This document shows positions 91 to 12,812 of a stretch of DNA of 12,812 nt, piece after piece. Each line of letters begins with the position of its first letter. The stretch's first letter is position 1. The notes beneath the pieces are model-generated. The model was not told where the DNA came from, did no database searches, and was given only the letters and a program-made list of their open reading frames with translations. Source of the DNA: Candidatus Lithacetigena glycinireducens (lineage in GTDB: Bacteria > Coprothermobacterota > HKB111); the NCBI GenBank assembly GCA_018725485.1, contig QLUP01000016.1, forward strand, positions 1 to 12,812. Reading direction: 5' to 3'. Position numbers and translations under genes: made by a program.

Positions 91-375
91 ATGAAGAGAG
101 AAGAAATATTTGAAAAGATTATTCGGATGCTAAAGAATCGTGGGGTAAAAAAAATAGCTATCTTTGGCTCTTATGTTAGAGGAGAGGAGAAACCAGAAAG
201 CGATATAGATGTTATTGTGGAATTTTCAGAAAGGAGAAGTCTTCTTGAAATTGTGGGAATAGAGCAAGAGTTATCCGATGCGATAGGCTTGAAAGTTGAT
301 CTGCTCACTGAAAAATCTATAAGCCCCTATTTGATCGATAGAATCAAGAAAGAAATGGTGGTGATTTATAGATGA
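91..375 (+). CDS. mntA: MNT-type minimal nucleotidyltransferase, antitoxin of an MNT/HEPN pair
   Basis: A 94-residue protein that is almost entirely one minimal nucleotidyltransferase domain. It shows the nucleotidyltransferase signature Gly26-Ser27 followed by the Asp38-x-Asp40 pair in SDIDV, and a plausible third metal ligand, Asp70, in KVDLL. In characterised MNT/HEPN systems this enzyme transfers AMP units from ATP to a tyrosine of the partner HEPN RNase and so silences it. An AAGAGGTG ribosome site at 76-83 lies 7 bases before the ATG. The stop codon overlaps the start of the next gene (ATGA, 372-375), typical of a translationally coupled toxin-antitoxin pair. All three acidic residues are present, so the enzyme looks active. 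The family and the pairing are clear; action as an antitoxin is inferred from homologous systems. Confidence 0.88.
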
Positions 376-719
376 AAAAAGACAAACTCGTATATCTGAG
401 ACATATTATAGATGCAATAAACCGAATCGAGGAATACACAAAAGGATTGGAGTATATTGATTTTATGAAGATTAATCTGATTCAAGCAGGGGTAATCAGG
501 GAGATTGAGATTATTGGCGAGGCCACGAAGAGATTATCCGATGAGATCAAAGAGAAATATTCCGGCATACCTTGGAGGAAAATAGCAGGGATGAGAGATA
601 AATTGATACACGATTATATGGGGGTAGACCTGGACGCTGTCTGGGATACAGTTGAAAGAGATATCCCCCAACTAAAGGAGAAGATAAAGGGTGTAATTGA
701 AAGGGAAGAGGCAACATGA
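372..719 (+). CDS. hepT: HEPN-domain RNase toxin (HepT, DUF86 family)
   Basis: A 115-residue, largely alpha-helical protein of the HepT/DUF86 family, the usual partner of MNT antitoxins. The catalytic HEPN motif R-x4-H is seen as Arg75 to His80 in RDKLIHDY, and Tyr82 sits two residues after the histidine. That is the R-x4-H-x-Y form in which the tyrosine is the residue AMPylated by MntA in studied systems. The upstream helix pair includes [13 protein letters not shown] (residues 40-52), also typical of the family. The gene overlaps mntA by 4 bases and ends with TGA at 717-719. Known members dimerise and cleave RNA, including tRNA. Toxicity here is inferred from the intact motif. No further gene follows before the grd promoter, so this is a self-contained two-gene unit. 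Confidence 0.88.
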
Positions 720-952: not shown

Positions 953-981
953 TTGTTTAAAAACCACCGATATAGTATAAT
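953..981 (+). promoter_or_regulatory. Likely sigma-70 type promoter of the grd operon
   Basis: A perfect -10 box TATAAT at 976-981 is preceded, after 17 bases, by TTGTTT at 953-958 as a -35 box. Transcription would start near 988 and give a leader of roughly 35 bases ending in AAGGGAGG (1004-1011), 10 bases before the grdE ATG. This placement argues that the open frame running upstream of 1022 is not translated. No operator or riboswitch-sized leader is seen between promoter and gene. Confidence 0.6.
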
Positions 982-1021
982 TTTTAATGAAATTAACACC
1001 CATAAGGGAGGCAATTTAAGA

Positions 1022-2662
1022 ATGATTGTTATAACACCTGATAATTTTCAAAAAGAGGTGTTGGAATCTTCTGTTCCAGTAGTTCTGGACTGCTGGAGGC
1101 CGGGATGCCACATCTGTGAAGAATTAGAACCTCAGGTAGAAGAGTTAAATAAGGAGTTGGCAGGAAAAGTTAAGTTTGGGACTTTAAATGTAAGCGATTA
1201 TAGAGCTTTTGCTCTGGCTAACCTGGAAAAAAAGGTGATGTTTCCTACTTACTACTTTTTCATCAAAGGGCAAATCGTGGATAAACTATGTGGCACAGAA
1301 TGCTCTCTCAGCACCATTAAAGCCAAGACTAAAAAGGTTTTGGAATTAAGCGAAGTAAAAGAAATTTCAAAAGTATTAGATTTGAAGTTTAATTATTTTT
1401 ACATCAAAGAAGTTAAATTTGGTTCTAAAACTGAAATAAAGGACAGTACATTATTCATTAATTCAGAAGAGCTAACCAGCAAGATTCTGGAAGACCCTCG
1501 CATTAAAAGCGTTGTTCTGGAGATTGCCCATCCGGGAGAATCGGTTAGAATTATGCCGGTAAAAGATGTGGTAGAACCAAGAACTAAAGTTAACGGAGGC
1601 AAAGGATACTTTTCAGGAGTATTGGGAGAACCGCAACCTGTGGGTGAAGGTGTTACCAATGTGCTTAAGGGTGTGGGAGTGGTAACTGTTGGTAAAATGG
1701 TGGCTTTTCAGGAAGGCATCATTGATATGAGCGGTCTTGGAGCACCCTACTCTATTTTTTCCCGGAATATTAATATCTGCTTAGTAATAGAACCTGTTGA
1801 TAATATTGAAAGACATGCTCATGAAGAAGCCTTACGTCTGGCTGGATTCAAGGCAGCTAATTACTTGGCTGAAGCGTCGGTTAATCTGGAACCGTGTGAA
1901 GTTAAGCACTATGTCAGGGAACCCATGATTGATTTACCTGAAAAATATCCCGGCTTACCTAAGGTAGGATATGTGAAGCTTATTCTTGCCCAGGGGTTAT
2001 TACACGATACCTATGTTTATGGGTGGGATGCCAAGAAGATGATAGCCACAGTTATGGAACCTATGGAAGCAGTTGATGGAGCGATCGTCAGCGGAAACTG
2101 CGTTTCATCCTGCGATAAAAGCACTACCTACCACCATCAAAATGACCCGGTGATTTTTGAGCTATTGGAAAAACATGGAAAAGAAGTTAATTTTATTGCC
2201 ACTATTATTGCACCAGAAGGGGTAACCCTGGAAATAAAAAAACGCTCTACTTTTATGGTTGGAAAAATAGCTAAATCTCTTGGTCTTGAGGGAGCTGTAG
2301 TAACTCAGGAAGGCTTTGGCAACCCGGATACTGATTTAATGCTTGCCTGTAAGAACCTGGAAAAAAATGGCATTAAAACGGTTTTAATAACCGATGAATA
2401 TGCCGGGAGGGATGGTTCTTCACAGTCTTTAGCTGATGCTACACCTGAAGCCAATGCCGTGGTAAGTTCAGGAAACGCCAATGAGCTGATTACTATTCCC
2501 CCTATGAAAAAAATTATTGGAAATAAAGAATCAGTTAAGGTAATCGCTGGAGGATCTGATAACTCTTTGAATCCAGACGGGAGTATGACTGTAGAATTGC
2601 AGGTATTTGTTGGAGCTACCAATCAACTTGGTTTTACTTATCTTTCTGCGAAAACCGTTTAG
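1022..2662 (+). CDS. grdE: Thioredoxin-GrdE fusion: glycine reductase protein B proprotein with N-terminal thioredoxin domain
   Basis: The protein has 546 residues. Residues 1 to about 110 form a thioredoxin fold with redox motif Cys29-His-Ile-Cys32 (in WRPGCHIC) and a cis-proline candidate Pro75 in MFPTYYFF. From about residue 119 it follows GrdE, with PGESVRIMPVKDV, FQEGIIDMSG, TQGLLHDTYVYG-like and QEGFGNPDTDL motifs. GrdE is a proprotein of selenoprotein B; family members are cleaved before a cysteine to leave a pyruvoyl group that forms a Schiff base with the amino substrate. Here that site is Asn359-Cys360 in SGNCVSSC. Cleavage would leave a ~359-residue chain carrying thioredoxin and a 187-residue chain. 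In studied grd operons trxA is a separate gene, so the fusion is unusual. The start is set by AAGGGAGG 10 bases upstream; an in-frame start at 953 would lie in the promoter. No plausible separate grdE start exists near the junction. Assignment to glycine rather than sarcosine or betaine reductase is likely, not proven. Confidence 0.9.
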   Translation: MIVITPDNFQKEVLESSVPVVLDCWRPGCHICEELEPQVEELNKELAGKVKFGTLNVSDYRAFALANLEKKVMFPTYYFFIKGQIVDKLCGTECSLSTIKAKTKKVLELSEVKEISKVLDLKFNYFYIKEVKFGSKTEIKDSTLFINSEELTSKILEDPRIKSVVLEIAHPGESVRIMPVKDVVEPRTKVNGGKGYFSGVLGEPQPVGEGVTNVLKGVGVVTVGKMVAFQEGIIDMSGLGAPYSIFSRNINICLVIEPVDNIERHAHEEALRLAGFKAANYLAEASVNLEPCEVKHYVREPMIDLPEKYPGLPKVGYVKLILAQGLLHDTYVYGWDAKKMIATVMEPMEAVDGAIVSGNCVSSCDKSTTYHHQNDPVIFELLEKHGKEVNFIATIIAPEGVTLEIKKRSTFMVGKIAKSLGLEGAVVTQEGFGNPDTDLMLACKNLEKNGIKTVLITDEYAGRDGSSQSLADATPEANAVVSSGNANELITIPPMKKIIGNKESVKVIAGGSDNSLNPDGSMTVELQVFVGATNQLGFTYLSAKTV

Positions 2663-2676
2663 GAGGTCCGTATTAA

Positions 2677-3153
2677 ATGGGAAAATTTGAGGGTAAGAAA
2701 TTTTGTGCAATTGGAGAACGCGATGGAATTCCCGGTCCTGCCATGGCAGAATGCCTGAATTCCCTCGGTGGAGAAGTAGTATTTATTACTTCCGAGTGTT
2801 TTGTCTGAACGGCTGCAGGTTCAATGGACCTGGAAAATCAAGGAAGGATTAAAGAAATAGCTGAAAAATATGGTCAGGATGAAGTTGTCGTGGTTTTAGG
2901 TAACGCTGACCCAGGTGGAGCAGAGGTTTTTGCTGAAACCGTGACCATAGGCGACCCTTCTTACGCAGGTCCATTGGCTGGAGTCTCGTTGGGACTCCCC
3001 GTATATCATATTTTTGAATTAAAAAGTGAAGTTGACCCTTCAGTCTGGCAGGAAAATATAGAAATGATGGAATTAGTTCTTGATGTTGAAGGGCTGATTA
3101 ATTCCATTAAAGAAAGACGAGAAAAATACAGCAGGTATAGCATACCGGTATAG
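2677..3153 (+). CDS. grdA: Glycine reductase selenoprotein A (Sec44)
   Basis: The 158-residue selenoprotein is read through an in-frame TGA at 2806-2808, which encodes selenocysteine 44. The redox motif is Cys41-Phe-Val-Sec44, followed by [11 protein letters not shown], the family hallmark. The N-terminal part (FEGKK, then [10 protein letters not shown]) and the end ([25 protein letters not shown]) also match GrdA, and the length equals the usual one. The small acidic protein takes the carboxymethyl group from protein B as a Se-carboxymethyl selenoether, hands a ketene-equivalent to protein C, and is re-reduced by thioredoxin. AGGAGG at 2661-2666 overlaps the grdE stop, with 10 bases to the ATG. 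GrdA is shared by glycine, sarcosine and betaine reductases. A standard gene caller would stop at 2808 or begin falsely at 2824. Confidence 0.96.
2809..2835 (+). promoter_or_regulatory. Candidate bacterial SECIS hairpin of grdA
   Basis: Just after the Sec codon (2806-2808), CAGGT at 2816-2820 pairs perfectly with ACCTG at 2828-2832 around a 7-base loop, which a T-G pair could shorten to 5. The stem begins 7 bases after the UGA, within coding sequence, where bacterial SECIS elements sit to recruit SelB. The stem is short and the fold was judged by eye. Confidence 0.55.
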
Positions 3154-3164
3154 GAGGCTGATTA

Positions 3165-4478
3165 ATGGAAAAGATAAGAGTAGTTCATTATATCAACCAA
3201 TTTTTTGGAGGAATCGGAGGAGAAGATAAAGCAGGTTTAGAGCCTCTGGTGAGAACCGGGAAAGTTGGACCTGGAATTGCCTTACAGAATATTCTTGGTG
3301 ACGAATATGAAATCGTAGCAACTATTGTCTGTGGTGATAATTATTTTGTAGAAAATCTGGAGAAAGTTAAACTGGAATTACTGAAACTTATTAAAGAATC
3401 CAATCCCCAAATCTTTTTTGCTGGTCCAGCGTTTAATGCGGGGAGGTACGGAGTAGCCTGTGGAACTATCTGTGAAGTGGTGCAAAAGGAACTGGGAATT
3501 CCAGTGGTTACCGGTGTTTTCTCGGGTAGTCCAGCGGCTGAGATGTTTAATCGGAATCTTTACATCGCAACTACTGCTGATTCAGCCCGGGGTATGGAAG
3601 AAGCAGTTAGAAGAATGGTTAACCTGGGTGTTAAGCTTCTGCAGAAACTTCCGATTGGCGACCCTGAAGTTGAAAATTATATTCCCCGGGGTATAAGGCA
3701 AAATATTTTCAGTGAAGATTTAGGGGCCAAAAGAGCTGTGGATATGTTAGTTAAAAAACTGAACCAGGAACCCTTTAAAACAGAATATCCTATGCCTTCC
3801 TTTGATAGGGTCCCACCTGCTCATCCCGTTGAAAGTTTATCCGAGGCTGTAGTGGGACTTACCGGGTGTGGTGGAATTGTACCTAAAGGTAATCCCGACC
3901 GAATTGAAGCCTCCAGCGCTTCTAAGTATGGAACTTACGAAATTACTGGAGTTGCTAACCTCACCGGAGAGATGTTTGAATCTGCCCATGGAGGATACGA
4001 TACCACCTATGCCAATGAGGACCCGGATAGGGTTCTACCGGTTGATGTTCTCAGAGACATGGAAAGAGAAGGTAAAATAAAGAAACTCCACGATATTTTC
4101 TATAGTACTGTGGGTAATGGTACTTCGGTAGAAAATGCTAAAAGATATGGCCAGGAAATTGCTCAGAAGTTTAAAGATGCGGCGGTCAACGCGGTTATGG
4201 TAACCTCTACCTGAGGCACCTGCACGCGTTGCGGCGCAACGCTGGTTAAAGAAATTGAAAGAGCAGGTATTCCCACAGTGCATATTGCTACGGTGGTGCC
4301 TATTTCTCAAACTGTTGGCGCTAACAGGATTGTTCCTGCAGTAGCTATTCCTTACCCCTTAGGTGACCCCAAATTATCCAGGGAAGAGGAATATAAACAA
4401 CGTAGGAAAATTGTGGAGACTGCTTTAAGAGCAGTATCAACTCATATAGATACTCAAACCGTTTTTGAGGTAAAATAA
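3165..4478 (+). CDS. grdB: Glycine reductase protein B selenoprotein subunit (Sec350)
   Basis: A 437-residue selenoprotein read through an in-frame TGA at 4212-4214, giving Sec350 in the motif TST-Sec-GTCTRCGA; Sec350 and Cys353 form a U-x2-C pair. Strong family blocks are HYINQFF near the start, GPAFNAGRYG, EYPMPSFDRVPPAHP, HGGYDTTYANEDPDRV and, after the Sec, TVGANRIVPAVAIP. With the processed GrdE chains it forms substrate-specific protein B, whose selenol is thought to attack the carbon of the activated amine. AGGAGG at 3152-3157 is 7 bases before the ATG and overlaps the grdA stop. The frame ends in tandem stops TAA TAG at 4476-4481. Sarcosine (GrdF) and betaine (GrdH) paralogs are close relatives, so the substrate is inferred from the GrdE-type partner. 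Confidence 0.95.
4215..4242 (+). promoter_or_regulatory. Candidate bacterial SECIS hairpin of grdB
   Basis: GCGTTGC (4226-4232) and GCAACGC (4236-4242) form a perfect 7-bp stem with a GGC loop, starting 11 bases after the Sec UGA (4212-4214). The GC-rich stem stands out in AT-rich surroundings. Position, size and a G-containing loop fit bacterial SECIS elements read by SelB. It lies within the codons for CTRCGATL, so it must serve both coding and structure. Confidence 0.7.
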
Positions 4479-4576: not shown

Positions 4577-6115
4577 ATGAGACCAGTGGTAAAAGGAGTA
4601 GCACTCTCACTTTTTCATGTGCCTACCCTGATGGCTTATTATGGGAATGTTCCATATTATGAAAGAGTGTTTAAGCCTGATTCTGAATACTTATCTAAAC
4701 TTACTTCAACTGCAAGAACCTATGATGAGGTGGTAAAATATCCCCCCAACCAGGTATTTATTGGAAATTATTCACCTGAAGATTTAAGAAAGATTAGCAG
4801 ACCCTGGTCAGTCAATGATAACTTCTCAGCAAATAGAGCAGGGGAGTTTGGTGAAATATTCAATGAACTGGAATTCTATGGGTGGTTAAAAATCGCCGAT
4901 TCTTTTGACCTGGTATGGTTAGAAAAAAGCTTTTTAGCCCGGGTAAAAGAAATTCTTTCCGGGCATTCTTTATTTAATCCATCTGACCTGAAGGATTTAG
5001 GTGAAGGCAGGGACTTGGAAGATGTTAAAAATGAGATTAATAAGGGTAATGCTATACCTTTACTTTGTGGTTCAGAAATAGTTGGTAGTGTTAGAAACGC
5101 ACATAGTTACGATGAAAATCTGAAAGGCTATCCCCTCCTGGAAAAATTATCTAATAAGGCTTCAGCAATAGTAGTTTTAAGGCAGGTTATTAACAATTGT
5201 GCTATGGAAGCTAAATCCATAGATTTCGTCATAGAATCCTCTGAAGAAGCGGTAGGAGATATGTTTCAACCTGGAGGTGGAGACCTGGCTAAAGCCATCG
5301 CTGAAAAAGCTCAATGTGTTAATGCTAATGGAGTGGATGTTCGGGCATTTTGTGCTGGACCGGCTGGAGCAGTCGTTATAGCATCTTCCCTGGTTAAATC
5401 AGGGCTGTTTAAAAATGTGGCGGTTATCGGTGGAGGCTCAATACCTAAATTAGGAATGAACTCCCGGGAGCATGTGGCTAAAGGTTTGAAACCCTTAGAA
5501 GATTGCCTGGGAGCAGTAGCCATACTTATTTCTGAAGATGACGGTGTATCACCGGTGATAAATCTTGATTCCGTCGGTAGACATAAAGTCGGGACAGGGT
5601 CTTCGCCACAGGCAATCACCACAGCCCTGGTTTCTGAACCACTGAAAAAACTGGGACTCAGTTTTTCAGATGTAGATAAATATGCTCCCGAACTTCATAA
5701 CCCTGAAATAACCGAACCTGCAGGAGCAGGTGATGTTCCCCTGGCTAATATCAAAATGATTGCCGCCTTAGCTACCATGCAGGGTGAGATAAAACGAGAA
5801 CAAATGGACAGTTTTATTGTTGAGAGAGGTATAGTTGGCTTTTCTCCAACCCAGGGACATATTCCCTCAGGGGTACCTTTTCTGGGGTGGGCAAGGAAAG
5901 AGATTCTAAAGGGAAACTGGAAAAGGGTTATGGTAATTGGAAAAGGAAGTCTGTTTTTAGCCCGAATGACTAACCTTGCTGAAGGGTTTTCTTTCCTGGT
6001 GGAAAAGAATGAACCACTCAGGGAATTACCACAACCGTCAACCCTGAGCAGGGAATATATAAGAGAGGTAATAATTGAAGTTTTACAGGAAATATCAGGT
6101 AATCTTGGAGGGTGA
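4577..6115 (+). CDS. grdC: Glycine reductase protein C, beta subunit (ketoacyl-synthase-like)
   Basis: The 512-residue protein matches GrdC in length and motifs. It belongs to the thiolase/ketoacyl-synthase III superfamily, with a nucleophile-type Cys259 in RAFCAGPAGA, IESSEEAVGDMFQPGGGDLAKA upstream of it in shortened form (IESSEEA, GGGDLAKA), NPEITEPAGAGDVP, and His428 in PTQGHIPSGVP as a possible catalytic histidine. With GrdD it makes protein C, which receives the acetyl group from GrdA and releases acetyl phosphate. GGAGG at 4563-4567 is 9 bases before the ATG. It is separated from grdB by 98 bases with two hairpins, the largest gap within the operon. GrdC serves all substrate types of Grd reductase. 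Identification is firm. Confidence 0.94.
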   Translation: MRPVVKGVALSLFHVPTLMAYYGNVPYYERVFKPDSEYLSKLTSTARTYDEVVKYPPNQVFIGNYSPEDLRKISRPWSVNDNFSANRAGEFGEIFNELEFYGWLKIADSFDLVWLEKSFLARVKEILSGHSLFNPSDLKDLGEGRDLEDVKNEINKGNAIPLLCGSEIVGSVRNAHSYDENLKGYPLLEKLSNKASAIVVLRQVINNCAMEAKSIDFVIESSEEAVGDMFQPGGGDLAKAIAEKAQCVNANGVDVRAFCAGPAGAVVIASSLVKSGLFKNVAVIGGGSIPKLGMNSREHVAKGLKPLEDCLGAVAILISEDDGVSPVINLDSVGRHKVGTGSSPQAITTALVSEPLKKLGLSFSDVDKYAPELHNPEITEPAGAGDVPLANIKMIAALATMQGEIKREQMDSFIVERGIVGFSPTQGHIPSGVPFLGWARKEILKGNWKRVMVIGKGSLFLARMTNLAEGFSFLVEKNEPLRELPQPSTLSREYIREVIIEVLQEISGNLGG

Positions 6116-6118
6116 TGT

Positions 6119-7285
6119 TTGGTGGATACAAAGGATTTAAAAAAGATTATAACTGAAGAGTTTAAACAAGTTATTGACAAAATCAAAAGGGACATGATTT
6201 CCAAAACTTGCATAGGTTTGACCCTGGAAGGTAACGAACATGGTCCGAAGGAGCTTATCAAGGGAGCTGAGGAGGCTGGCAGGGATAATCCGATGCTGGA
6301 AGTGGTTTTAATCGGTTCCCAGAATTATGGTTCACAATTATCTTTTTATAAAACTGGAGAGTCTCTGAAGGAATGTCATAAGGAAATGGAATTGCTTCTG
6401 GATGAAGGTGAAATAGATGGAGCGGTAACTCTTCATTACGATTTCCCCATAGGCGTAACCACAGTAGGTAGAGCAATCACTCCTGGAAGAGGCAGGGAAA
6501 TTTATATTTCATCTACTACGGGGACTTCGGCTATTAATAGGGTAGAAGCAATGATATTAAATGTTATTTATGGAGTAGCTATCGCTAAGTCCCACGGCAT
6601 AGAAAAGCCTACGGTGGGGGTGTTGAACATTGAGGGCGGTAGGGTGGTGGAAAAAGCTATAAACGATTTGAACAGGGCTGGTTACCCCATTCAGTCCGGT
6701 ATCTCTTTAAGGTCTGATGGTGGAATGGTATTAAGGGGTAATGACCTGTTAGCTGGTGGAGTGGAGGTAGTGGTATGCGATTCCCTGACAGGTAATATTC
6801 TGGTAAAAATATTTTCAGCTTTTCATACCGGTGGAGACTACGAAGGGGTTGGCTATGGGTATGGTCCTGCAACTGGAAAAGAGTATAAAAGAAAAGTAGC
6901 TATAATATCTCGTGCCTCTGGCGCACCAGTAGTAAAAGGGGCGATTCTGGACATGTTTCGATGCCTTAGGGGAGATTATGTTAAGAAGGTTGAAGAGGAA
7001 TTATTAAAAGCGGAAAAGGCTGGATTAAGAGAAATAATTGGTAGATACACGACTAAATTAGCAGAGAAAAAAGTTGAACCGGTTAAACTTGTGGTAAAAC
7101 CCATACCTGTTGATGAAGAAATACCAGGAATTGATGTATTAATGATAGACGATGCTGTAGATATTCTACTAAACGAAGGAGTTTATGCAGAAGCTTGCAT
7201 GGGTTGCACCGGACCAGCAGTAAGGGTCAGTAAAGAGGATAAAGAGAAAGCATTAAGGTTATTAAAAGAAAAAGGGATGATATAG
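6119..7285 (+). CDS. grdD: Glycine reductase protein C, alpha subunit (acetyl phosphate-forming)
   Basis: A 388-residue protein of the GrdD family, distantly related to PlsX phosphate acyltransferase, as seen in VEVVVCDSLTGNILVK (residues 215-230). Near the C-terminus Cys360 and Cys363 lie in ACMGCTGPAVRV. In the studied GrdD the active-site thiol that forms the acetyl-enzyme is a cysteine at about this place (Cys359), and phosphate then releases acetyl phosphate for ATP synthesis. The start is not ATG: TTG at 6119 lies 7 bases after GGAGG (6107-6111), and GTG at 6122 is an equally plausible alternative; the ATG at 6115 is out of frame. It follows grdC after 3 bases, so translation is probably coupled. 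The stop TAG is 24 bases from the converging mnhG stop. Confidence 0.93.
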   Translation: MVDTKDLKKIITEEFKQVIDKIKRDMISKTCIGLTLEGNEHGPKELIKGAEEAGRDNPMLEVVLIGSQNYGSQLSFYKTGESLKECHKEMELLLDEGEIDGAVTLHYDFPIGVTTVGRAITPGRGREIYISSTTGTSAINRVEAMILNVIYGVAIAKSHGIEKPTVGVLNIEGGRVVEKAINDLNRAGYPIQSGISLRSDGGMVLRGNDLLAGGVEVVVCDSLTGNILVKIFSAFHTGGDYEGVGYGYGPATGKEYKRKVAIISRASGAPVVKGAILDMFRCLRGDYVKKVEEELLKAEKAGLREIIGRYTTKLAEKKVEPVKLVVKPIPVDEEIPGIDVLMIDDAVDILLNEGVYAEACMGCTGPAVRVSKEDKEKALRLLKEKGMI

Positions 7286-7309: not shown

Positions 7310-7663
7310 TCAACCTTTAAAGTTATCTGAACTGTTGTTATCACTTTCCTGGTCTGTATCATCTGTTAAATCATCAAATACTAATCCTTTGGGTTTTACG
7401 ACATAACGATAAGAAAAGTTGGCGAGGATATGAGAGGTTACTGGAGAAAACAATAACATCAATAAGATTATCAGGAGAGACTTTAAACCAAATTCATTGA
7501 AACCATTTTTAACTATGATACTAGCCATGATAAAGAAAATACCCATGGAACTGATTATTGATGCTGAATGAATTTTGGTGTAAAGGTCAAAGAATCTTAA
7601 TAATCCAATACAACCAATAATATGCGCTATAACACCCCATATTATTAATATGTCACTTAACAT
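7310..7663 (-). CDS. mnhG: Na+/H+ antiporter subunit G (MnhG/MrpG)
   Basis: A 117-residue membrane protein with three predicted helices (about residues 3-22, 38-55 and 63-82) and family motifs GVIAHIIGCIGLLRFFDLYTKIHSAS in pieces: GLLRFFDLYTKIH and LLMLLFSPVTSHI, the latter holding the conserved Pro. The C-terminal tail of about 25 residues is rich in Asp, Asn and Ser (DDLTDDTDQESDN) and would lie outside the membrane. It is the last gene of the antiporter operon. ATG at 7661-7663 is preferred: it follows AGGAAA and overlaps mnhF by 11 bases. An upstream in-frame start at 7723 would add 20 residues (MALVDFYK...) and overlap mnhF by 71 bases, which is unlikely. Confidence 0.85.
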   Translation of the reverse strand: MLSDILIIWGVIAHIIGCIGLLRFFDLYTKIHSASIISSMGIFFIMASIIVKNGFNEFGLKSLLIILLMLLFSPVTSHILANFSYRYVVKPKGLVFDDLTDDTDQESDNNSSDNFKG

Positions 7664-7931
7664 GATTTTTCCTGTTATTTTCAACCCTATCGTGGTAATT
7701 TTGTAAAAATCTACCAAAGCCAACTATAACCAGGAAATTTGCAAATACCATTATTATTAGAACATCCATTAAATAACTGAGATTTTTAACCAATGCCAGT
7801 AAACCTATAATTGATATTGTTATGTTTCCCATCACCTCAATTATCAATATAGAATCACTGGAGGTTGGACTTTTAACCAATCTATATATCAATATTAAAA
7901 TGAGGAAACTCAAAAAAGCTATATAAATCAT
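7653..7931 (-). CDS. mnhF: Na+/H+ antiporter subunit F (MnhF/MrpF)
   Basis: A small 92-residue protein with three membrane helices (about 2-17, 30-48 and 55-73). The pattern RLVKSPTSSDSILIIEV matches the MrpF region that normally reads R-x-x-x-G-P-x-x-x-D-R-x-x-x-x-D; here the second half is degenerate. The ATG overlaps the mnhE stop (ATGA, 7928-7931), and its own end overlaps mnhG. Subunits E, F and G form the small-subunit end of the Mrp complex, and their order here is the standard one. Identity rests on position plus this motif. Confidence 0.8.
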   Translation of the reverse strand: MIYIAFLSFLILILIYRLVKSPTSSDSILIIEVMGNITISIIGLLALVKNLSYLMDVLIIMVFANFLVIVGFGRFLQNYHDRVENNRKNHVK

Positions 7932-8440
7932 TCTTCAAAAACCTTTTTCAGGATACTTTCAAATTTCTCAATTATCTCTTTTCTTAAGACCTCTCTATTA
8001 GTGTCTTCAACATTTAATTTATGAATGTAAAGATAATTTCCTACAAGATTAACAGTAAGAGTTCCGGGAGTTAAAGTTATGGAGTTGGCAAGGATAACCT
8101 GTGCTAATTTATTATTCAGATTGGTTTTGCATTTAATTAAAGCTGGTTTAACCGTTATTTTAGGCTGTAAAATAGAGTAACCCACTTTGAGACTGGAAAG
8201 CATTATCTCTTTAAATAAAAATAAAAGGTAATATACGATATAAATTAATCTTTTAAAAGAGATATTTACCTGGAGAAAAGGAAAATCTTTTCCAAAAATA
8301 AAAATTGATAAAAGGGAAATGAATATCCCTAATATTATATAATCGGGAGTTAGTTTATTAGTAATAACTATCCAAAAAATAAAAAATAGTAAAAAAGTTG
8401 GTAGATGTTTTATTATCTTAGTAAAATAAATTCTGACCAC
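7928..8440 (-). CDS. mnhE: Na+/H+ antiporter subunit E (MnhE/MrpE)
   Basis: The 170-residue protein has hydrophobic N-terminal segments (about 12-50 and 62-82) and a soluble C-terminal domain. The family signature NSITLTPGTLTV occupies residues 119-130; Thr124 and Pro125 correspond to residues that mutational work on Bacillus MrpE found important. The start is GTG at 8438-8440, preceded by AGGAAGGAA on the minus strand, and it overlaps the end of mnhD by 28 bases. The overlap and the ATGA junction with mnhF show tight translational coupling. Confidence 0.88.
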   Translation of the reverse strand: MVRIYFTKIIKHLPTFLLFFIFWIVITNKLTPDYIILGIFISLLSIFIFGKDFPFLQVNISFKRLIYIVYYLLFLFKEIMLSSLKVGYSILQPKITVKPALIKCKTNLNNKLAQVILANSITLTPGTLTVNLVGNYLYIHKLNVEDTNREVLRKEIIEKFESILKKVFEE

Positions 8441-9903
8441 TTCCTTCCTAATAAAAGAGTATTTTGTATTATTTCATTAAAATAAATAGAAACTCCATTA
8501 AGCAGGATTAAACTGCTTAAAGCACATAATAAGCTGAGAAAGAGCATTGGTAATATCATAGAGGTTGGGACCTCTTTTATTTCATTCAGGTTAATATCAG
8601 AAGATGCTTCCCCCCAAAAGGCATATTTTAATACTTTGGTAAAACTGGCAAGAGTTAAAATACTAACTAAGGTGGTAATTATAGCCGTTAGGTAGTTACC
8701 AGAATATATGGAAGCAATAATTATTAATAGTTTAGACCAAAACCCATTTAAAGGGGGAATACCTGAAATTGACAAAGAGCCGACTAAATTTGTGAAATAT
8801 GTCCAGGGCATTCTTTGTCTAAGATTTCCCAGTTTTTTTAAGTTTCGGGTTCCTGTCGCATATTCAATAGAACCAGCATTTAAAAAAAGAAGTGATTTAA
8901 AAAGGCTATGATTTATAAGATGTAGTAAACCAGCAAATAATCCCAGAGAAGTGTTTAAACCGAAAGCAGCCAGGACATATCCCATCTGGCTGATAGTATG
9001 GTAAGCTAACAACCTTTTAAAGTCCCATTGGTTTATAGCGAGCAAAACTGCCACCATCATTGATACATTTCCAATAATGAGAAACAAATTAGAAACCTCA
9101 GGGGTTATCCCAATTATGTTATAAATTATTCTAAAAATAGGGTATATTCCCGCAATTTTAATAAGTATTCCTGATGAAATTGCGTTTATAGGAGCAGGAG
9201 CATTTTGATAAGCATCGGGTAACCACATGTGAAGGGAGAAAAGACCTGCTTCAATACCGAAGCCAACCATAAATAATATGGTAGCCATATTGGAAATATG
9301 GGTTGGTATATTTAGCCTGGAGAGGTCAATGAAATTTAAAGTTCCTGTTGAAAAATAGAGGAAAATTATTCCCAGCAAGATAAATGCTGAACCAAGCCTG
9401 CCAAATACCTGGTATTTAAATGATGCCTCCAGTCCCTCCTTACTAAGGTCATAAGCAACTAAAGTATATGCACTTATAAGAGTTAACTCTAAAAAAATGT
9501 AAAGATTAAATATATCTCCCGAGAGAACTACTCCAGATACTCCTGCAAGTATCAGCAGGAGTAAGGAATAATATTTATTCTTCAGGTTATTATCTTTTAT
9601 GTATTTTAAGGAAAATATGGTTGCCGGGAGTACAATCAAGTTTATGATTAAAAGTAAGAGTGCAGATAAACCATCTGCTATTAAAAAAATAGCTATGGGA
9701 ATCCCCAATACATCTTCCCACCCTCCAACTCGGTTAACAATTACCCCACTGCTAAGTGTGTGGAAAAGTACCTGAATGCTTAAAACTGTATTTATTAAGG
9801 GTATAGCAATAGCAAAATATTCTGTAAAACGCTTCTTAAGCATTCCCATTAATAAATTTATAATAGCGGCAAGCAGCGGTATCCCAATAAATAGACTTAA
9901 CAT
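8413..9903 (-). CDS. mnhD: Na+/H+ antiporter subunit D (MnhD/MrpD), proton-channel family
   Basis: A 496-residue polytopic protein of the NuoL/M/N-MrpA/D family, with about 14 helices expected. Conserved features are Glu139 in TM5 (NLYIFLELTLIS), MWLPDAYQNAPAPI after TM7, Lys249 in ILIKIAGIYP, and SGIPPLNGFWSK with a late Lys. One key position differs: TM7 reads GFGIEAGLFSLH, with Glu218 where MrpD and NuoM/N carry a Lys (K219 in Bacillus MrpD). The codon at 9250-9252 is GAA, one base from the Lys codon AAA. The protein is expected to conduct H+ in exchange for Na+. Its ATG directly abuts the mnhC stop (TAA-ATG), with AAAGGA as ribosome site. Confidence 0.92.
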   Translation of the reverse strand: MLSLFIGIPLLAAIINLLMGMLKKRFTEYFAIAIPLINTVLSIQVLFHTLSSGVIVNRVGGWEDVLGIPIAIFLIADGLSALLLLIINLIVLPATIFSLKYIKDNNLKNKYYSLLLLILAGVSGVVLSGDIFNLYIFLELTLISAYTLVAYDLSKEGLEASFKYQVFGRLGSAFILLGIIFLYFSTGTLNFIDLSRLNIPTHISNMATILFMVGFGIEAGLFSLHMWLPDAYQNAPAPINAISSGILIKIAGIYPIFRIIYNIIGITPEVSNLFLIIGNVSMMVAVLLAINQWDFKRLLAYHTISQMGYVLAAFGLNTSLGLFAGLLHLINHSLFKSLLFLNAGSIEYATGTRNLKKLGNLRQRMPWTYFTNLVGSLSISGIPPLNGFWSKLLIIIASIYSGNYLTAIITTLVSILTLASFTKVLKYAFWGEASSDINLNEIKEVPTSMILPMLFLSLLCALSSLILLNGVSIYFNEIIQNTLLLGRKWSEFILLR

Positions 9904-10242
9904 TTATCCTTTAAGATCTTTCAAGTCATTAATATCCAGAGATTTAAATTTTTGGTAAATCTTTACTGTAAAAGATAAGAGTAAAAGAGTAGTGGCAAAG
10001 CCTATCACAATGGCTGTAATAATCATAGCCTGAGCGAGGGGGTCAACATAAACATAATCAGCAATTTCAGCTCCTGTAATTGGAGGAAAGGCATCTTTTT
10101 TATATCCTTTAACAATGAATATGGTGAATATAGCATATTCCATTAAAGTTAAACCAATGATGGTTTTTATGATATTTCTTTTTGTGGTAATGCCATATAT
10201 TCCTATTAATAAAAGCAGAATTGATAAAAAATATATTAACAA
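9904..10242 (-). CDS. mnhC: Na+/H+ antiporter subunit C (MnhC/MrpC), NuoK-like
   Basis: A 112-residue protein with three membrane helices (about 2-19, 28-46 and 70-95), homologous to NuoK. The hallmark DPLAQAMIITAIVIGFA occupies residues 67-83, including Gly81, which matches a glycine (G82) important in Bacillus MrpC, and GLTLMEYAI lies in the second helix. The start is TTG at 10240-10242, supported by GGAGG (complement of 10250-10254) 7 bases upstream. It is 18 bases after mnhB and directly abuts mnhD. Confidence 0.9.
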   Translation of the reverse strand: MLIYFLSILLLLIGIYGITTKRNIIKTIIGLTLMEYAIFTIFIVKGYKKDAFPPITGAEIADYVYVDPLAQAMIITAIVIGFATTLLLLSFTVKIYQKFKSLDINDLKDLKG

Positions 10243-10260
10243 ATTGAAACCTCCAATTAA

Positions 10261-10662
10261 TTATTGTCCTCGTTCTTCATAAAATTCAATGAACATATTG
10301 CTTAACCCCGAAAAAACTTTGATACAGATAAGGAGGTTAAATATCAGGATAGTACCTGAGCTGAATAAACTCTGATTGACACTTACCGGTAAGAAGTTAT
10401 ACATGAAGCTTTTATTAAATAAGAGAGGTATTAAAGCAATTAACATTATAAAGAGGAGAGATGTTAATTCCAGAAAAAGTATAAAGTTTTTAGAAGGCCT
10501 TTTTTCAAATACCAGGGAGTTTATTATTATTAATCCTGCTATTATTACTCCTCCACTAAAACCTCCACCCGGGGAAAGATGGCCCTGAAGGGCGAGGTAT
10601 ATGCCGAAAATTAATAAAAAACCACTAATAAATTTAATGGTTGTTTCTACTATTATTGACAT
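10261..10662 (-). CDS. mnhB: Na+/H+ antiporter subunit B (MnhB/MrpB)
   Basis: A 133-residue protein with four predicted helices. The MnhB signature GHLSPGGGFSGG is at residues 27-38; Pro31 and Phe35 have the same 4-residue spacing as Pro37 and Phe41, which matter in Bacillus MrpB. The rest fits the family: FGIYLALQ before the motif and a long helix ending in VFSGLSNMFIEFYEERGQ. The first 29 bases overlap the end of the preceding gene. Identification is secure. Confidence 0.92.
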   Translation of the reverse strand: MSIIVETTIKFISGFLLIFGIYLALQGHLSPGGGFSGGVIIAGLIIINSLVFEKRPSKNFILFLELTSLLFIMLIALIPLLFNKSFMYNFLPVSVNQSLFSSGTILIFNLLICIKVFSGLSNMFIEFYEERGQ

Positions 10663-11179
10663 TATTGTCCCTTAAAATGAGCATTATCCCGATAATAGCG
10701 CTAAAAAGAATTGATATTTCTCCTAAGGTATCGTATCCCCTAAAATCAAAAAGGATGCTGGTAACAATATTTTTTGAACCTGTTTGAGCTGAAAGCTCAA
10801 TGTATTTATTAGACATCCTCATTATTGGTTCTCCAAATGAGGGCAGCTCCTCTAAAACAGGTAATAACCTTTCGGTAAACACAAAGGCAATGATAATGAG
10901 AAATGTATAGTGCATTACTCTTCTTAAATCAAAACGGGATTTTATGTCAATATTCTGGGTTTTGCTAATGGTGATTAAGAAAATTACTAAAGTCAATGAT
11001 TCAATAATAGCCAGAACGATTGCTAAATCGGGGGCATTTAAGAGAAAGAATAAAATAACTAAGCTATACCCTACCACCCCTAAGGATATCACTGAAGTAA
11101 AAAGGTTTTTCCCTTCTATAGAAATAATACCACCAATAATCATTAAAAATAATAAAAAGATTACATATGACTCTATCAT
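10634..11179 (-). CDS. MrpA C-terminal-like subunit (DUF4040/MbhD domain plus MbhE-like domain)
   Basis: The 181-residue membrane protein corresponds to the C-terminal part of full-length MrpA, which in Bacillus is joined to the NuoL-like part. Residues 1-72 are a DUF4040/MbhD-type helical domain with NAPDLAIVLA (48-57). Residues 139-170 are MbhE-like, with FDFRGYDTLGEISIL, the MrpA tail motif. In the first domain the usual AxTEAxxG pattern reads AIVLAIIE, so the family Glu appears replaced by Leu and a Glu (Glu60) is found one helical turn later. The start overlaps the stop of the mnhA-like gene (ATGA, 11176-11179). Split MrpA is known in archaeal-type and some bacterial operons, where the parts are named MbhD and MbhE. 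Confidence 0.8.
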   Translation of the reverse strand: MIESYVIFLLFLMIIGGIISIEGKNLFTSVISLGVVGYSLVILFFLLNAPDLAIVLAIIESLTLVIFLITISKTQNIDIKSRFDLRRVMHYTFLIIIAFVFTERLLPVLEELPSFGEPIMRMSNKYIELSAQTGSKNIVTSILFDFRGYDTLGEISILFSAIIGIMLILRDNNVNNSRNNH

Positions 11180-12812
11180 CTTAACACTATTAATAACAAT
11201 AACATAAATAACAAAACCCAGTTAAGGTAAGAGTGGAGTAAACCATTTTGGATATGGGATAGGAATTGGTAAACATTGAAAATTAAATGTTTTCCCTGCT
11301 CATATAAATCAAGATAATCTTTGAAAATAATTTTTTTGTTTAATGATTGGTATAAATATAGACCAATAACAATTCCCAGGATGATTTCTAATATTTTTAT
11401 AAAATTGAGAGAAAAAATGGTGGATTGCACAATTTGAGCATTAATTAACTGAGGCAGGGCTGGAAGCACCAATAGTTTTAATGGTAAATTTAGGGCAAAT
11501 ACTCCAAAGAAGATACATAAGATAGACAAAATGACCTGGGGGAATAGCGAAAAAAAGTTAGTACTGGGATAATAATCTCTTCCTTCCCGGGAATCACCAA
11601 ATATAGTAAGAAAGAGATAAAAGATAAATTTAGTAAAGGAAGCTAAAGTAAGGGATGAGCCAATCAGGGAGATGAAAAGAAAAATATTAAAACCCTGAAA
11701 AGCATCTTTAATACCCATATTAATCAGATTCTTAGAAACAAATCCATTAAACGGAGGAATCCCGCTTATAGACAGGGCGCTAATAAGGGTGGTGGCAAAT
11801 ATTAAATAGATAAACAAATTATTTTTATTAAAATAAAACTGTTTTGGTTTTACTGAAAATACATTCATAGTGTAATTACTGTGATTATTGCCAAAAAAGT
11901 GTTCCACGGATAGGAAAAGATTAGATTTAAAAAGGGTGTTGTTGAGCATATGGAATAATCCCCCGATTATACCCAGTATAAATCCTGACCCTATGCCAAT
12001 TACCATATAACCAGCCTGGCTAATGGAACAATATGCAAGTAATTTTGAGGCATCTTTTTGGAACATTGCGTGAACCACTCCATATATTAAGGACACAGAA
12101 CCAATGACCAATATAATCATTTTAGCAACTTCATCAATTATAAACATATCATTCACGATCCTTATTAAGAGGTATATACCTACAAGTTTATCGAGGGTTG
12201 CAGGTAAAAAAGCTAAGACAGAAGGGGTCATTACGGTTGACATTTCAGGAATCCAGCTGTGAAAAGGCACAATACCTATTTTTGATAACACTGCTGTCAT
12301 TAAGCAAAAGAGAGTAATATAACTGAAAAGGGAAGCAAGTTCTACCTGAGTGCCAAAAACCATACTATTGGTCAGGAAGAAATAACCTACGATACCCAGA
12401 ACGAATAAAGAATCGCCTAACCCTAATATTATGAATGTTTTTTTGGCTACAGAAGAGTTAGTATTGGTTTTTCCAATATTAATCAGTAAAACTATAAGAA
12501 TAGTCATTAAAGTAACGAAAGTAGCCAACATTATTAGATTGTCAGTAAATACAGCAAGTATTGAAAAAAGCATGATAAATACATAATATGAATATTTATT
12601 AGAAAGAAAATCTTTATCCTTTAGTGAATATATTGTTATTAGAAAGGTATGTAGAGATATGAAAAGAAATATAACTTTCGAGAAATAATCAACATAGACG
12701 AATTGTATATTAAATTGGGGTAGTGAAAACAGGTAAAATGAAAATACTAGAGAGGATAGAGGAAGAAGGATGGCAAAATATTTTAGATAAATTATGTCAA
12801 ATCTCCCTTTTT
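11176..12812 (-). CDS. MnhA/NuoL-like antiporter subunit, partial (5' end beyond the window)
   Basis: The frame is open from the right edge, so the gene is cut off at its 5' end; 544 residues are visible. The first ~80 read as a hydrophobic N-terminal part (ending SNKYSYYVF) and are in frame ahead of the internal Met at 12573, so that Met is not the start. Family features: GIVPFHSWIPE preceded by Lys in LSKIG (TM7), TLDKLVGIYLL with a TM8 Lys, GGLFHMLNNTLFKSNLF, and SGIPPFNGFVSKN. At TM5, where the family has F-W-E-L-T, this protein has FVTLMT, so the usual Glu is Thr. It lacks the MrpA C-terminal domains, which are the next gene. It could be an MrpA core, an MrpD paralog or a hydrogenase-linked antiporter subunit. 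Confidence 0.8.
   Translation of the reverse strand, partial: KGRFDIIYLKYFAILLPLSSLVFSFYLFSLPQFNIQFVYVDYFSKVIFLFISLHTFLITIYSLKDKDFLSNKYSYYVFIMLFSILAVFTDNLIMLATFVTLMTILIVLLINIGKTNTNSSVAKKTFIILGLGDSLFVLGIVGYFFLTNSMVFGTQVELASLFSYITLFCLMTAVLSKIGIVPFHSWIPEMSTVMTPSVLAFLPATLDKLVGIYLLIRIVNDMFIIDEVAKMIILVIGSVSLIYGVVHAMFQKDASKLLAYCSISQAGYMVIGIGSGFILGIIGGLFHMLNNTLFKSNLFLSVEHFFGNNHSNYTMNVFSVKPKQFYFNKNNLFIYLIFATTLISALSISGIPPFNGFVSKNLINMGIKDAFQGFNIFLFISLIGSSLTLASFTKFIFYLFLTIFGDSREGRDYYPSTNFFSLFPQVILSILCIFFGVFALNLPLKLLVLPALPQLINAQIVQSTIFSLNFIKILEIILGIVIGLYLYQSLNKKIIFKDYLDLYEQGKHLIFNVYQFLSHIQNGLLHSYLNWVLLFMLLLLIVLR

Follow-up and report, generated by a model that had tools for sequence, protein, structure and literature searches.

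The glycine reductase (grd) operon of the window, i.e., the whole 12,812-nucleotide stretch of Candidatus Lithacetigena glycinireducens DNA analysed here, opens with a gene that joins a thioredoxin (Trx) and GrdE in one polypeptide, followed by grdA, grdB and the genes of component C (Table 1). The enzyme is a known one; what is new is the thioredoxin-GrdE fusion, which is a variant of it and not a new kind of system. On balance, the sequence evidence leads us to favour the reading that protein B has acquired the grd-dedicated thioredoxin as a covalently attached N-terminal domain, which would tether the reductant of selenoprotein A to it.

Table 1. Features of the fusion gene and of the grd operon in the window (Trx, thioredoxin; Sec, selenocysteine)
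Feature	Position	Strand	Remarks
Putative -10 box TATAAT	976..981	+	TTGTTT at 953-958, spacer 17; from sequence
Ribosome-binding site GGGAGG of fusion gene	1006..1011	+	Precedes ATG1022; identical in BS5B28
trx-grdE fusion gene	1022..2662	+	546-aa proprotein, 59.6 kDa; translation without internal stop
Thioredoxin domain, residues 1-110	1022..1351	+	Pfam PF00085; AlphaFold2 block with pLDDT about 84-92; fold match 4knd_A
Active site C29-H-I-C32	1106..1117	+	Both Cys invariant in aligned grd-linked TrxA
Linker/hinge, residues 111-118 (8 residues)	1352..1375	+	Occupies the usual trxA/grdE intergenic gap
GrdE part, residues 119-546	1376..2659	+	PF09338; 50-59% identity to separate GrdE
Asn359-Cys360, predicted pyruvoyl-forming cleavage site	2096..2101	+	Invariant; homologous to C. 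difficile GrdE Cys242
grdA, selenoprotein A	2677..3153	+	CFVU, Sec44 at UGA 2806-2808; NF040748 226 bits, cut-off 130
grdB, selenoprotein B	3165..4478	+	Sec350 at UGA 4212-4214; PF07355 E 8.5e-158
SECIS element of grdB	4215..4252	+	RF01990 SECIS_4, 53 bits, E 2.4e-10
Component C subunit beta (GrdC)	4577..6115	+	NF040746 678 bits
Component C subunit alpha (GrdD)	6119..7285	+	NF040747 483 bits

Both parts of the fusion are recognised by Pfam: Thioredoxin (PF00085) covers residues 2-93 (E 3.3e-12, 46.7 bits against a cut-off of 23.5) and Gly_reductase (PF09338) residues 121-544 (E 5.7e-185, 615 bits against a cut-off of 22.2). Since the latter match spans profile positions 3-426 of 426, the GrdE part is complete, and the initial annotation was right in describing a single open frame that joins a thioredoxin to an entire GrdE; the residues it named (C29-H-I-C32, C24, P75, C90 and C94) were also correctly placed. 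The SGNC site, Asn359-Cys360, is invariant in an alignment of 44 rows, which was held in register by treating the stop codons that separate trxA from grdE as residues. Cys360 corresponds to Cys242 of C. difficile GrdE (360 - 118 = 242), the residue for which mass spectrometry demonstrated a pyruvoyl group (PMC9908766). On these two grounds, cleavage at this site is predicted to leave the thioredoxin on the larger, 39.8-kDa chain, as had been proposed, and to release a 19.8-kDa pyruvoyl chain.

The AlphaFold2 model computed from a 44-row alignment (mean pLDDT 84.7, pTM 0.74) comprises a thioredoxin fold, a hinge with pLDDT below 50 at residues 113-116, and GrdE. The predicted thioredoxin part resembles solved thioredoxins at Z about 18, among them 4knd_A (VIA Z 18.7, rmsd 1.3 Å over 104 residues), and in sequence and fold searches of the PDB only this part was matched among the matches listed, the thioredoxin domain filling the list. 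Conserved columns are changed at 25 positions, 22 of which are in GrdE, and the GrdE part is therefore itself divergent. Residues 397-400 (window positions 2210-2221) read APEG here and in the sister species described below, where other GrdE sequences have a near-invariant TNEN.

The same fusion is carried by Ca. Psychracetigena formicireducens BS5B28 (QLTX01000040.1), which is one of the MAGs of PMC9751293 and comes from The Cedars; the two proteins are 92% identical, with no indel and no stops. BS5B28 is the closest genome, and the two organisms share a genus in our genome set. Between these two species, dN/dS (Nei-Gojobori) is 0.062/0.698, or about 0.09, in the thioredoxin part and 0.041/0.708 in the GrdE part, and codons 96-125, which contain the linker, give a dN of 0.065 and a dS of 0.929, rough values from 30 codons. 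The ratio is about 0.06-0.09 over all three segments, and purifying selection acts across thioredoxin, linker and GrdE.

A search of GrdE homologs for N-terminal thioredoxins, as the initial annotation had advised, gave BS5B28 as the sole further case. When 84,980 species genomes were scanned and the best 80 GrdE loci kept, only that of BS5B28 proved to be fused; a separate trxA lies 23-190 nt upstream of grdE in 70 of the other 79, and the remaining nine have no trxA within 600 nt. Three grd-bearing relatives in the window's phylum, as delimited in our genome set, have separate trxA and grdE genes about 30 nt apart. The earlier statement that the two genes are neighbours yet separate elsewhere agrees with our survey: in nearly all other lineages examined they adjoin each other, and none of these lineages has them fused. 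Same-frame trxA/grdE pairs seemed over-represented (55 of 69), but this excess was rejected as ranking bias, because tblastn joins same-frame pairs.

About 1,520 further genomes, in overlapping samples of Clostridia, Synergistota, Bipolaricaulota and another Bacillota group, were screened with the whole fusion in a loose first-look search, Spirochaetota and Chloroflexota lying outside its deliberate coverage. Strong matches were obtained in 46 of 391 genomes of one class, 125 of 185 Synergistota genomes, 26 of 297 and 43 of 249 genomes of two orders, 2 of 100 genomes of a Bipolaricaulota-type phylum and 64 of 299 genomes of one more Bacillota phylum. There was no other fusion among these genomes, every two-domain match listed containing at least one stop. 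Nine long frames from Clostridia and Synergistota and three later ones were read individually and rejected, the thioredoxin being off-frame, past a stop or not found. Plasmid records likewise contained no fusion among the matches listed. By these searches, the fusion appears to be restricted to one genus. No fusion of glycine reductase with thioredoxin was found by a full-text search, which reaches few subscription papers and no supplements, and the main text of PMC9751293 does not mention one. For Brachyspira, PMC2897892 lists trxB with grdE directly after it and no trxA, an arrangement that might or might not be a fusion.

In a tree of 84 thioredoxins, whose few columns do not fix the nearest relative of the fused pair, the two fused domains nest on a long branch inside the clade of grd-linked TrxA (support 100/99), apart from generic thioredoxins. 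By this placement, the fused domain is a descendant of a grd-dedicated TrxA, and a lost stop codon between the operon neighbours trxA and grdE most likely gave rise to the fusion. The domain shares on average 33% identity with other grd-linked TrxA, compared to 44.6 +/- 4.5% for pairs at equal GrdE divergence. The simplest history would be loss of the trxA stop, followed by rapid change in the thioredoxin.

The fusion might, however, merely fix a 1:1 stoichiometry and co-translation of the two partners, with the thioredoxin acting like a diffusible TrxA and gaining nothing in rate or specificity. The adjacency of the partners in 70 of the 79 sampled loci and the small evolutionary step required are in favour of such an explanation, as is the short flexible hinge of the model, which predicts no fixed geometry. 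It accords poorly with the occurrence of the fusion in one genus only, despite widespread opportunity, with the purifying selection on the linker and with the strong divergence of the thioredoxin since fusion; we regard it as possible, although doubtful.

Alternatively, separate proteins could be made in spite of the fusion, by internal initiation or by proteolysis of the hinge, which is predicted to be flexible. The ribosome site of the fusion gene is strong in both species, with an anti-Shine-Dalgarno (SD) duplex of -10.6 kcal/mol at ATG1022. The sole start-like codon at the GrdE junction, a TTG at residue 121, is kept in both species, and in BS5B28 a weak SD-like AGAGG precedes it (-7.0 kcal/mol). 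In the window, however, the TTG has no SD (+0.2 kcal/mol; the median over 78 separate grdE genes is -14.5 kcal/mol), and the codons of the linker show constraint at the level of the protein, so that we consider separate products improbable. The promoter layout of the window recurs in BS5B28 (TTGCCT-17-TATAAT), the window's own putative -35 element (TTGTTT) scoring below the -35 threshold of the promoter tool. An Rfam search revealed neither a glycine riboswitch nor any other Rfam family upstream of the fusion gene.

The CHIC motif, which the initial annotation had singled out as unusual, is absent from all 69 separate grd-linked TrxA surveyed. The commonest motif among these is CEPC (47 sequences), followed by CGPC (6), CEIC (5), which is the nearest to CHIC, CEKC (4) and CDLC (2), with single occurrences of CEHC, CDKC, CAPC, CEYC and CKPC. 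Cys24, Cys29, Cys32 and Cys94 are common to the window and its sister species, and position 90 is Cys in the former and Tyr in the latter. A multi-cysteine relay through C90 and C94 (C-x3-C), as had been suggested, is unsupported because C90 is not conserved.

Could the thioredoxin domain have lost its reductase role, and serve as a structural element or act on a new target, e.g., the Sec/Cys site of GrdB? The long branch is in line with this, as are CHIC in place of CEPC or CGPC, the Cys at position 24, which is aromatic in others (Phe27 of E. coli Trx), and the alteration of the conserved Arg62 and Val71. Nevertheless, both species retain the active-site Cys29 and Cys32, Asp23, Trp25 and cis-Pro75, and the dN/dS of the domain is low, at 0.09; such a loss is very unlikely.

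Although the window derives from a 1.24-Mb draft MAG that is 83% complete, an assembly or sequencing artefact that deleted a stop codon or a frameshift is ruled out, since BS5B28, an independent MAG of another species, has the identical architecture within different flanks: past grdD the window carries Mrp-type antiporter genes and BS5B28 other genes, and the two are therefore not copies of one assembly. Taken from the sequences of both species and the genomes searched, the fusion is real and is kept by selection, and none of the other lineages searched has it.

Glycine is the most likely substrate, since GrdB matches the published GrdB motif (Nobu et al.) and not the sarcosine GrdF motif; as regards glycine versus sarcosine/betaine reductase, TIGR01917 scores 601.4, just below its cut-off of 602.2. 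The grd cluster contains neither trxB nor a separate trxA. In both genomes the TrxB gene lies on a different contig; motifs of NADPH enzymes, CAAC and one of HRR type, are present in the TrxB sequence. The PF00085 search found no thioredoxin but the fused protein in BS5B28, and in the window's genome it gave just one further match, a PDO-like protein of 228 aa with two CxxC motifs. In the three grd-bearing relatives of the GTDB phylum, the only PF00085 protein is the TrxA encoded directly upstream of grdE, so that the lack of a general PF00085 thioredoxin characterises the group as a whole rather than the fusion.

Several other features flank the operon. At 91-719 (plus strand) there is an MntA-like nucleotidyltransferase gene (53.6 bits, below the cut-off of 60) that overlaps a HepT-like gene, a pair that is likely a type VII toxin-antitoxin system just upstream of the grd operon. 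Between this pair and the grd promoter lies a G+C-rich, repeat-like stretch (830-945; cgcttcgctcgcag), which is partly replaced in BS5B28. Downstream, genes resembling those of Mrp-type Na+/H+ antiporters (7310-12573, minus strand; two of the large subunits examined by Pfam) converge on the operon, and such a run would fit an alkaline habitat. What comes after grdD in the sister species, as judged by eye, is a set of genes similar to those for 2-oxoacid:ferredoxin oxidoreductase and glutamate dehydrogenase (L021, 724-4485), which suggests that amino acid oxidation may be tied to glycine reduction there.

By the established mechanism (work of Andreesen), selenoprotein A is oxidised on leaving protein C, and its reduction has to precede carboxymethyl uptake from protein B. 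Glycine reduction consumes thioredoxin dithiol (PMC10298544), and the TrxA3/TrxB3 of the C. difficile operon have been assigned to glycine reductase and the reduction of selenoprotein A (PMC10880999). For a thioredoxin tethered to protein B, we infer the cleavage, the electron path, the docking and any gain in rate as follows. After self-cleavage at Asn359-Cys360, the thioredoxin would remain part of protein B's N-terminal chain, and its CHIC pair would receive electrons from the NADPH-thioredoxin reductase, whose gene lies elsewhere in the genome. The pair would in turn reduce the Sec-Cys bond of selenoprotein A at its loading site on protein B, whereupon reduced selenoprotein A could take the carboxymethyl group from protein B and move to protein C, yielding acetyl phosphate. 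Against this tether stand the unusual divergence of the thioredoxin, which is compatible with a changed role, the SD-like AGAGG near the TTG in BS5B28, from which some separate GrdE might be produced, and the PDO-like protein, which might compete for TrxB. A bolder proposal, which we put forward only tentatively and think rather unlikely, is that protein B is here an electron-channelling form, in which electrons would pass from NADPH through TrxB and the tethered thioredoxin to selenoprotein A on the same particle, which would adapt the organism to alkaline, H2-rich water with little glycine.

The fusion shares with GrdE proteins at large the complete PF09338 match, the SGNC site and an operon with grdA, grdB, component C and selenocysteine codons, and differs from them by the N-terminal thioredoxin and by APEG for TNEN. 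With the TrxA of other grd operons (e.g., C. difficile TrxA3, [G/S]C[V/E]PC), the fused domain has in common its place upstream of grdE, its clade, its fold, the CxxC motif and the cis-Pro. Unlike them, it is not a separate protein, contains CHIC and, although it lies in the grd-linked clade, scores 71.4 bits against the cut-off of 140 for the clostridial grd TrxA profile (NF047697). Ndh-SelD and Prx fusions (PMC2398784) similarly join a redox partner to a selenium-related enzyme; they involve different enzymes, and glycine reductase is in none of them. The glycine reductase of Ca. Lithacetigenota was described by Nobu et al. 2022 (PMC9751293), whose BS5B28 carries the fusion gene; the main text of that paper treats thioredoxin as a separate electron carrier, in contrast to the fused form found here.

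The lineage is known from alkaline, hydrogen-rich springs, and has been proposed to live on H2 plus glycine with a basal form of the enzyme (PMC9751293). Thioredoxin, usually free beside glycine reductase, is in this genus part of one of its subunits, and the fusion bears on how proteins A, B and C and thioredoxin meet in glycine reduction. As a covalent link that exists in nature, it is evidence for a reductant that acts near protein B, and it offers a ready construct for structural and kinetic work.
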